Of a DNA stretch of 64,000 nucleotides, positions 29,859 through 32,798 are shown one piece after another. Origin of the DNA: Streptomyces sp. XD-27 (lineage in GTDB: Bacteria; Actinomycetota; Actinomycetes; Streptomycetales; Streptomycetaceae). A program made the translations under genes and the position numbers. The first letter of the stretch is position 1; every line of letters begins with the position of its first letter. The notes under the pieces are model-generated. The model was given only the letters and a program-made list of their open reading frames with translations. It was not told the DNA's origin and did not search any database. Where the stretch lies: positions 6,200,001-6,264,000 of the forward strand of contig NZ_CP130713.1 of NCBI RefSeq assembly GCF_030553055.1. The letters are read 5' to 3'.

Positions 29859-30887
29859 TCACGACCCGCCGCCGCAGCCGCCTCCCCCGCAGCCTCCGCC
29901 CCCACCTCCGCCTCCGCCATCCGAGCCTCCGCCGCCGCAGGACGCGCTCGTACCGCACGAGCCGCCGCCCGAGCCCGAATCCGGCGAACCGCACCACGAC
30001 GGCTCCTCGGAGCCGCCCGAGCACGCCGCGGCCGAGTCGCCGCCGCCCGAGCCGGACGAGCCTCCCGAGCTGGAGGCCGCCGACCTCTGGGCGCGCTCCG
30101 CCGCCAGCAGCTGCTCCTGGAGCAGCGGGTCCGCGCTCAGCGCGGCCGCGCCGCCCAGCGCCACGGCGACCGCCACCGACGCCGCCGGATCGGCGCCTCC
30201 GTCTCCGCCCCCGCCCGCCGAACGCCGGCCCCGGCGCCCGCCCGAGGGCCGGGTCACGGCGCCGCGCCGGTACGCCGTCAGGGCCCGCCTGCCCGCCGCC
30301 GTGACCCGGCGGCGCGAGATCTGCGCGCAGATCGCGCCGGTCATGAGGCCCGCGAACAGCCACGGCAGCACCGTGAAGATCGACGTCGGCCCGAAGGCGT
30401 CGCTGTCCTGCATGATCGCCAGCACGATGAACACCCAGCACGCGACGGTCAGCGCGTTGGCCGCGCGCCGCCAGCGGCGCGCCGTCGCGGGCCGCACCAT
30501 CAGCCCGCGCTCCGCGAGCCGGTCGCCGATCTCCTGGACCTCGGCGCTGCGCATCAGCGCCGTGCGCAGAGCCGCCAGGGCGCCGTGCGGGGCGCGGGCG
30601 TGCGCCTCCAGCAGCGCCTGCTCGACGCGGTTGCGGGCCACCGGACGCAGCACGGCCACCACCCCGGGCGCGCCGACCGCGAGCCTGTTGTCCTCGCACA
30701 TGGCGGCGATCGCGGTGTCGGCCACCCGGCCGGGGCCGCCCGCGAGGAACGCCGCCTCCGTCACGTCGTACGCCCGGGCGCCCGCCCTCAGCGCCGTGGA
30801 CACCCTGCGGGACGCCGCCGTACCCGCCACGACCGCCACCGAACCGCCACCGACCACTGCGTACAGCAGCGGCACCAGGGCGCTCAT
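29859..30887 (-). CDS. TIGR04222-type membrane protein with Gly/Cys/Ser-rich C-terminal tail
   Basis: 342-aa membrane protein. Hydrophobic segments lie near residues 3-24, 160-178 and 184-208, with a fourth weaker one near 252-275. Between the first two is a conserved cytoplasmic-type domain ([28 protein letters not shown]) that I assign to TIGR04222. The last 50 or so residues are almost only Gly, Ser and Cys, with six Cys ending in GGGCGGGGCGGG. ATG 30887 overlaps the stop of the upstream MNIO gene (ATGA), so the two are translationally coupled. The tail resembles a modification substrate for the MNIO enzyme; this is inference. No characterised function known to me. Confidence 0.72.
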
Positions 30888-32526
30888 GCCGCCCTCCGGC
30901 CGCGCAGGGCGAGCCGCGCGGTGCGCGCGAGGCGGGCCACCCGGCCGGACGGCAGGGGCGCGGGCCCCGAACGCTCCCGCCACCAGTCGGCGAGCTGCCG
31001 CCGCACCGCCGGGTCCAGCGGTCCGCGCGGTCCACCGGTGGCCAGCAGGTGCTCGGCGAAGGCGAGGGCGTCGCGGCGGTAGCCGCCGGTCATCGGGTGG
31101 GAGCCCGCGTATCGCAGGAACGCCGACCGGAAGCCGTCCCCCAGGATCCGCGGCAGCTCCGGGGCGACCTTGGCCACGACTCCGGCGCGCTTCACCGCCA
31201 GCGCCCGGTGCTGTACGCGCAGCCGCCGCCGGTCGAAGCCCTCGGGGGCCGGGGTGCCGGCCACGAGCGCGGACAGCAGGGCGGTCTGCGCGAGCGCGAG
31301 CCGCGCCCGCGCGGCATCGGCCACGGTCACGCCGCCGTTCGGGCCCGCGGTCCGGCCTGCAGCCCCGGCAGGGGCTTCGACCGCCGCCGCGGTGGCGCCC
31401 CGGCCCGCCGTCCCACCAGTGGTTTCGCTCGCGGACCCGTCCGCGGCGCCGGACGGCTCCGGCCGCCCCGCCGCCGTACGGCCCGTCGCGGTTGCGGTCG
31501 CGGCCGCCGGGACGGCCTCATACGCCCCCTGAGGCCGGCGCGGCAGCGCGACCGCCGGGCGATCCGCGCGCGCCGCCACGGCGACCGCCGACCGCGTCCG
31601 GACCTCCGGCGCGCCCGCTACCGCTTCCACCGGCTCCACCGGCTCCGCCGCGACCGCGGTCTCCGCCGCCGTCCACGCCGCCCGTACCGCCGCCGTCAGC
31701 GCCGCGCGTTCCGTCACCGAGCGGATCTCGTCCAGCTCGGCGGCGAGTTCCTCGAAGGGAGGGAAAGCCTCGTCGCGCTCCAGCAGCACGCCCGGGGCGT
31801 CGTGCGCGCGCACAGCTCGGCGAGGACGTCCAGCACCGGCCGGGGCACCGGGTGGGCGTGGCTGTCGTGCCACACGCCGTCCCGCTCCACGCCGCCCGCC
31901 ACATGCACGTACGCCAGCGCGGACAGCGGCAGCGCGTCGAGCGCGGCTATCGGGTCCTCGCCCCGGTTGACGTGGTTGGTGTGCAGGTTCGCGACGTCGA
32001 TCAGCAGCCGTACCCCCGTACGCTCCACCAGCTCGGTGAGGAACTGCCCCTCCGTCAGTTCCTCGCCCGGCCAGGAGATCAGCGCCGCGATGTTCTCCAG
32101 CGCGAGCGGCACCGGCAGCGCGTCCTGCGCGATCCGCACGTTCGCGCACAGCACGTCCAGCGCCTCGCGGGTGCGCGGCACCGGAAGCAGGTGTCCGGCC
32201 TCGATACGCGGCGACGCCGTCAGCGGCCCGCCGGCCCGTACGAACGCGATGTGCTCCGTCACCAGCGGGGCGCCCAGCGCCTCCGCCCGCTCGGCGAGTG
32301 CCGCCAGCCGTTCGCGGTCCGGCGGTTCCGCGCCGCCGAGCCCCAGCGAGACCCCGTGCGGCACGACGGTCGTCCCCCGTTCCCGCAGCTGCCGCAGGGC
32401 GTCCGGAAGGTGGCCGGGACAGATGTTCTCCGCCACGACCTCGACCCAGTCGATCCCCGGCAGCCCGGCTATGTCGTCGGCGATCTCCGGCCGCCAGCCG
32501 ATCCCGGTCCCAAGACGACGCACCAT
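30884..32526 (-). CDS. DUF692 (MNIO) oxidase fused to a DUF2063-like domain (frame break near 31803)
   Basis: Residues 1-270 are a multinuclear non-haem iron oxidase of the DUF692/MbnB/BufB family. Likely metal ligands are seen in [48 protein letters not shown] and LLERDEAFP. After an Ala/Thr-rich linker, the C-terminal 150 residues ([18 protein letters not shown] to FAEHLL) resemble the DUF2063/BufC partner domain. ATG 32526 follows AGAGGGGG. Near 31803 the frame breaks; one extra base gives [15 protein letters not shown] (about 547 aa in total). Such enzymes modify Cys or Asp in peptides; the coupled downstream gene supplies a Cys-rich tail. Confidence 0.8.
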
Positions 32527-32609
32527 GATTCCCCCTCTCATCACGTGCGGGAGTCATGACCCCCTGAGACGGGACGAATCCTGGGGCCGCGCGGTTCAGA
32601 GCTTCATTT

Positions 32610-32698
32610 GAGCTTCGTCCCCGTACCCGCTGAGCCTCGTCCCCGTGCCCGCTGAGCTTCGTCCCCCGTGCCCACTGGGCTTCGTCCCCCGTGCCCGC
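32610..32698. repeat. Four tandem 22-23-nt repeats in a divergent promoter region
   Basis: Units at 32610-32631, 32632-32653, 32654-32676 and 32677-32698 follow GAGCTTCGTCCCCGTGCCCG with few changes. They occupy the 272-bp gap between the MNIO gene and the PBP gene. A Streptomyces-type -10 (TAGGGT, 32775-32780) for the PBP gene lies downstream. Confidence 0.85.
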
Positions 32699-32798
32699 GC
32701 GCGGGCCCGCGGTGCGCTATGTCCCCCCTGTTACGGACTCGGGGGTCTGGTGCGACAGGCGTTCGGAAGAGGCATAGGGTACGTGTCGTCTTGGGGGG

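Follow-up and report, generated by a model that had tools for sequence, protein, structure and literature searches.

A DUF692 oxidase with a partner-like domain and an adjoining Cys-tailed TIGR04222 membrane protein in Streptomyces

According to the accessible part of Antoine et al. 2025 (PMC12452194), to which all statements about that article refer, membrane proteins of the TIGR04222 family with Cys-rich Gly/Ser tails are proposed substrates of multinuclear non-heme iron-dependent oxidases (MNIOs). Many of the MNIO-TIGR04222 clusters appear there without a partner gene, the tails, of which two are shown, are predicted to be exposed to the periplasm, and one organisation in Table 2 of the article is peptidyl-tRNA hydrolase - MNIO - TIGR04222. 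Here we describe a locus of this kind in a stretch of 64,000 nucleotides (the window) from Streptomyces sp. XD-27 (NZ_CP130713.1, positions 6,200,001 to 6,264,000 of the forward strand). The locus occupies positions 29859-32526 on the minus strand, as do all features given below, and encodes an MNIO (DUF692, PF05114), a partner-like domain and a TIGR04222 membrane protein. As in the published candidates, the TIGR04222 protein ends in a Cys-rich tail and its gene adjoins that of the MNIO. In relatives the MNIO and the partner-like domain usually form one chain. On balance, we find it somewhat probable that this chain is a self-contained MNIO-PF26136 oxidase and that, where the genes adjoin, the tail of the Cys-tailed TIGR04222 protein is its likely substrate, modified on the cytoplasmic side.

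The earlier note on this DNA had described the MNIO as fused to its partner. This holds for the relatives, whereas the window's own gene carries a frameshift. The genomes comprised a genus sample of 199 Streptomyces and a phylum sample of 396. Set A consisted of 40 loci around listed PF05114 hits, taken roughly in handle order (G001-G071) with some genomes skipped, among them those whose hit was unlisted, and set B of the 80 best among 525 confirmed matches to the intact fusion enzyme P0002 from Streptomyces sp. NPDC005355, which biases it towards P0002-type fusions; at least three of the 120 loci are present in both sets under different numbers. A single frame encodes both the MNIO and the C-terminal domain at 35 of 40 loci in set A and at 80 of 80 in set B (115/120 together), and this fusion is the usual arrangement in the sampled Streptomyces. 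At four loci (L072, L081, L082 and L097) the partner domain is a separate open reading frame (ORF) that overlaps or abuts the MNIO. Long upstream frames at these loci had suggested a fusion of the partner domain to the TIGR04222 protein, which was rejected: the domain has an ORF to itself, in a different frame. The MNIO of L094 has no partner domain, and a further MNIO is encoded by a long frame elsewhere in the same genome (G060). The TIGR04222 protein that follows the MNIO of L094 has a 48-residue tail with 6 Cys and 46% Gly.

Outside Streptomyces, the partner-domain profile matched 7 further genomes of the phylum sample. The domain adjoins the MNIO in a different frame in L113-L117 (84-123 of 131 model positions), the match in L115 having one internal stop. 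In L118 a partial match adjoins both the MNIO and a Cys-tailed TIGR04222 piece, and L119 gave a weak partial match only, without an MNIO. In one genome from another family of the same order, a 450-residue frame contains an MNIO with 70% identity.

The partner-like domain lies at 30908-31309. In homologues it is precomputed as PF26136 ('SCO6045-like C-terminal'); that model is absent from the local Pfam scans, so the window's copy is unscored. A resemblance to DUF2063 had been claimed for it and a profile check proposed. The window's piece scored 17.1 bits against DUF2063 (PF09836), below the cut-off of 27.2, while 9 of 22 partner-domain members matched at E ≤ 1 (best 5.9e-4). In structure it weakly matches chains from TglHI and MbnABC, and it may be a DUF2063-like helical bundle. 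Partner profile A1 found nothing relevant among the sequences of solved structures (best E 0.61), and NGO1945 (3dee) is absent from the structural match rows, an absence that excludes nothing. Of the two features by which Antoine et al. describe PME-type 2, the domain shows one, the lack of a DUF2063 signature in a product encoded together with an MNIO or beside it; the other is structural similarity to NGO1945 or TglI. The fused C-terminal domain may serve as a helper of the MNIO.

The window's MNIO frame runs from ATG 32526 to 31714 (270 residues; alternative start GTG 32544). Its assignment to the MNIO family in the earlier note is confirmed by a PF05114 match of 4.3e-71 (239.7 bits, cut-off 25) that covers positions 2-236 of 263. 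Positions 234-262 of the profile were found in a second frame (16.1 bits, under the cut-off), which spans 30884-31807, holds the MNIO end (VLLERDE...), a low-complexity linker and the partner-like domain, and is homologous to PF26136-bearing proteins. With the last part of the MNIO domain out of frame with the rest, a 547-residue reading crosses a frameshift, and the single 547-residue ORF proposed for the fused enzyme was rejected. The frameshift zone, where the MNIO frame ends early and relatives read through in one frame, is at 31780-31820; a run rich in C and G near 31,79x is not quite of the length seen in relatives. The scores of the frameshifted 276-residue piece are under the cut-offs of five NCBIfam equivalogs (BufB 163.6, below 310; HvfB 121.7, below 360; ApyH 116.9, ChrH 39.8 and MbnB 19.4 bits).

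The metal ligands had been described as kept, which fits the part of the enzyme before the break. Residues of ligand type (H63, E97/H98, E150/N151, D183, N186, H188, H214, D227, H229 and H231, numbered from GTG 32544) are identical in 118-121 of the 121 rows of the MNIO alignment, and those before the break are all present in the window's enzyme; we take these conserved residues to be iron ligands. The last conserved segment, including the Glu of LLERD, is lost to the frameshift. This loss would fit a pseudogene in XD-27 whose enzyme function is gone, a possibility that we regard as real but rather doubtful. The partner-like and TIGR04222 frames are still open and similar to relatives, and the break falls within a C/G run, a common site of sequencing error. 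The XD-27 genome is a single contig with a completeness of 96.92%, compared to 98-100% in most listed relatives, and a phase-switch scan gave 39 candidates per 400 kb, compared to 24 per 400 kb in two control genomes. Together, the two figures hint at residual indel errors and make them plausible, the scan being too noisy to decide. Either the frameshift arose by mutation recently or it is an error of sequencing, and the system may be dead in the XD-27 genome.

The TIGR04222 gene (29859-30887, 342 residues) overlaps the second half of the enzyme gene by ATGA at 30884-30887, the four-base overlap that had been noted before. Checked against TIGR04222, the protein matches at 1.8e-35 (122.7 bits, cut-off 43). 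Its Gly/Ser/Cys tail, the candidate MNIO substrate, comprises residues 281-342 (29862-30047) with Cys at 289, 299, 311, 317, 333 and 338; these last 62 residues include 31 Gly, 12 Ser and 6 Cys, in agreement with the six Cys reported. Tail statistics were taken from the 120 best-listed of 257 TIGR04222 homologues, the window's own protein included. Their last 110 residues contain 2-11 Cys (median 7), with fewer than four in two records only, both labelled 'partial', and WC[GAS] is present in 114 of the 120. Among 50 aligned homologues W298 is invariant and the Cys columns 299, 306, 311, 333 and 338 are at least 90% conserved; position 306 is Ser in the window's protein. The retention of both the Cys number and WC[GAS] across homologues indicates that the tail is conserved and not a product of chance.

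Tail Cys and position are tightly linked. TIGR04222 genes abutting the end of the enzyme or partner have at least 4 tail Cys in 50 of 55 cases, compared to 1 of 77 for genes further off (up to 4 kb). Abutting genes are complete, on the same strand and start between 250 nucleotides inside and 95 nucleotides behind that end; the count refers to the 120 loci without the window, and covers genes within 4 kb that are not cut off where a locus ends. The difference (Fisher 2e-29) is uncorrected for relatedness or duplicates. The exceptions are L120, L138, L155, L162 and L183, near with fewer than 4 Cys, and L081, far with 8 Cys. At L081 two TIGR04222 genes, each with 8 tail Cys, stand in succession after the separate MNIO and partner genes. 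PF05114 hits occur in 187 and TIGR04222 hits in 176 of the 199 genomes in the genus sample. In genomes without a PF05114 hit (n = 6, of which G102 and G198 are fragmentary or incomplete), TIGR04222 tails have 0 Cys in L200-L203 and 3 in L204. L205, also without such a hit, has 0 Cys behind its last matched stretch, and the weak hit L206 gave no match to the profile used here.

The earlier note had proposed to survey the co-occurrence of enzyme and tailed gene; the co-occurrence of tail and adjacency is strong. A Cys-tailed TIGR04222 gene stands directly behind the enzyme in about half of the Streptomyces sampled, and 18 of 40 have none there; 14 of these 18 loci have another TIGR04222 gene nearby and 4 have none (the sequence of L080 ends 879 nucleotides behind the enzyme). 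Over all loci, 57 were classed as tail-less, and the ligand-type residues of the MNIO are retained in 55-57 of them. That the enzyme is kept without the tail suggests that it has another substrate in those species, or that the tail is not the sole one. Taken further, the fused MNIO would act on some other Streptomyces-wide substrate, and the Cys-tailed TIGR04222 protein would be a co-transcribed, unmodified metal- or thiol-binding protein. The persistence of the enzyme in tail-less loci fits this explanation, as does the frequency of DUF4142, PTH2 and a small Cys protein as neighbours in relatives. We nevertheless consider it unlikely, given the overlap of the genes and the tight association of tail Cys with genes that follow the enzyme immediately. 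In addition, the tail-bearing and tail-less classes can be told apart at 10 columns of the MNIO and 2 of the partner, which suggests that enzyme and tail belong together. Such columns are as expected if substrates differ; ancestry alone could also produce them. On a quick tree of 103 enzymes (100 different) the two classes require five changes, two of them forced by strong branches, and a single tail-less clade was rejected (p-AU 0.003).

In the 57 tail-less loci (all among L062-L199) the enzyme is often followed by a Cys-poor or Cys-free DUF4142 protein, by a TIGR04222 paralogue whose short tail lacks Cys, or by both. No hidden Cys-rich precursor was found in the tail-less gap of those loci that were inspected, the gap gene being of DUF4142 type with 0-2 Cys. 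A small Cys protein, typically of 59-72 residues (CVLCxxPTEYPESYKGITLCPVCEWQEAQRTACSG), is encoded near the enzyme in 63 of 121 loci of both classes, for example about 4.5 kb upstream of the MNIO in L174. Where present, its gene is co-directed with the enzyme in 33 of 37 tail-less loci and opposed in 20 of 21 tail-bearing loci. With its CxxC ... CPxC pattern it is probably a zinc ribbon. It was not accepted as an MNIO substrate. In its copies from L067, L068, L143 and L146 a nearly identical segment (MGVPPLERSREWGSV) replaces the AECV of the others and resembles a shared insertion or repeat.

The membrane side of the tail was assessed with a simple hydropathy scan and positive-inside counts, a rule of thumb. 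Three segments of the window's protein are likely transmembrane: residues 3-21 (30825-30881; 0 K/R before, 3 after), 142-160 (30408-30464; 6 before, 0 after) and 170-188 (30324-30380; 0 before, 5 after). Among the 120 homologues, 70 have three hydrophobic segments, 49 have four (the window's protein among them) and one has five. All 70 homologues with three segments carry their K/R residues on the side of the tail (mean 10.7 vs 0.16), which favors a tail in the cytoplasm. The extra segment starts at about residues 209-260 in 47 of the 50 homologues with more than three, the place of window residues 238-256. If a fourth segment crossed the membrane, the tail would come to lie outside, where the published prediction for TIGR04222 tails (PMC12452194, accessible part) also has it. 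The tail could then be modified before or during membrane insertion and end up outside as part of an extracytoplasmic metal-binding surface protein, which we judge quite improbable. Of 50 aligned members, 43 have at least two residues in the extra stretch that are charged or His, and 7 have one, unlike the three helices, in which at least two D/E/K/R occur in 1, 4 and 4 of 50 members. With this charge content the stretch looks soluble and is unlikely to span the membrane, and the Cys tail is more likely cytoplasmic.

The reading that we favor combines these elements. The MNIO barrel and the DUF2063-like partner domain (PF26136) attached to it would be a self-contained peptide- or protein-modifying oxidase in Streptomyces, with the flexible Gly/Ser/Cys tail encoded by the overlapping TIGR04222 gene as its likely substrate. 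Anchored by three transmembrane helices, the tail would extend into the cytoplasm, as the charge bias suggests, within reach of a cytosolic MNIO. The partner domain may dock the substrate, and, if bufferins are a guide, the multi-iron site may oxidise tail Cys to thiooxazoles or similar groups. The product would be a membrane-anchored metal- or redox-active array. We hold only tentatively to a bolder form, in which a natural single-chain MNIO-partner enzyme, near-universal in the sampled Streptomyces, oxidises many Cys of an integral membrane protein's cytoplasmic tail after insertion and so creates a tethered metal-binding array. Weighing against the favored reading are the sub-threshold DUF2063 score, the broken and possibly dead XD-27 gene, the well-kept enzymes of tail-less loci with their other frequent neighbours, and both the published tail orientation and the fourth hydrophobic stretch.

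The window's neighbours of the locus are genes for a TAP-like peptidase, a chlorite-dismutase-family protein, a flavin amine oxidase-family protein and a penicillin-binding protein; the second and third we take to be HemQ-like and HemG-like, respectively. PTH2 and DUF4142 are often added in relatives' loci. Imperfect direct repeats (CTGAGCTTCGTCCCCGTGCCCG...) were seen by eye at 32604-32700, between the MNIO gene and the divergent penicillin-binding protein gene. A literature search on PF26136 or 'SCO6045-like' found nothing that uses those terms, and SCO6045 itself was found once, in a table of the hydrogen peroxide response. There, in the accessible part of the source (PMC4991794), SCO6045 is induced 3.0-fold by hydrogen peroxide in wild-type S. 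coelicolor alongside cysteine, methionine and cobalamin genes, and the induction is absent in a mutant without HbpS-SenS-SenR. The PF26136 domain name is what ties SCO6045 to the fused-enzyme family.

The fused partner offers an answer to a published gap, the MNIO-TIGR04222 clusters seemingly without a partner protein, and suggests a role for PF26136, so far a name only. One enzyme protein with one clear candidate substrate in culturable Streptomyces makes MNIO action on membrane proteins directly testable, and species with and without the tail provide a natural comparison for finding another substrate. If the bolder form of the reading is true, the substrate of an MNIO would be not a peptide but a genuine membrane protein. 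The earlier note had envisaged a distinct kind of modified surface or metal-binding protein; the coupling of a Cys/Gly-tailed TIGR04222 protein to the enzyme stands, but the pairing was already published as a putative substrate relationship and the tail is more likely cytoplasmic.

Among known systems, the bufferin operons BufA-BufB-BufC and HvfABC resemble the Streptomyces loci in combining an MNIO with a DUF2063-type partner, and theirs acts on Cys of a ribosomal product. They differ in having a separate partner with an RRE and a small exported precursor. TglH-TglI (8hi7, 8hci) and MbnB-MbnC (7dz9) likewise differ from the fused enzyme in consisting of separate chains that act on small peptides. 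MNIO and helper function do share one polypeptide, as here, in MovX and in an engineered HvfBC fusion (PMC13419390, PMC12452194, accessible parts); however, MovX carries a fused C-terminal RRE/winged-helix rather than a DUF2063-like bundle, and the HvfBC fusion is man-made. No natural MNIO-partner fusion besides the fused RRE of MovX was found in a literature search whose coverage mostly excluded subscription papers. The clusters of Antoine et al. are like the window's locus in the MNIO-TIGR04222 pairing and the Cys-rich Gly/Ser tail. Their hydrolase-MNIO-TIGR04222 organisation may be these very Streptomyces loci, although the hydrolase is given there as PF01195 and that of L085 matches PTH2 (PF01981); no peptidyl-tRNA hydrolase was seen beside the window's enzyme. 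In the accessible part of that article an MNIO-partner fusion is unreported and the tail is predicted outside, whereas the MNIOs of the Streptomyces loci usually carry a fused partner-like domain and the tail is predicted to be inside. The MNIO-TIGR04222 pairing is thus already published, and it is the fused partner-like domain and the predicted inside position of the tail that differ from the published account.
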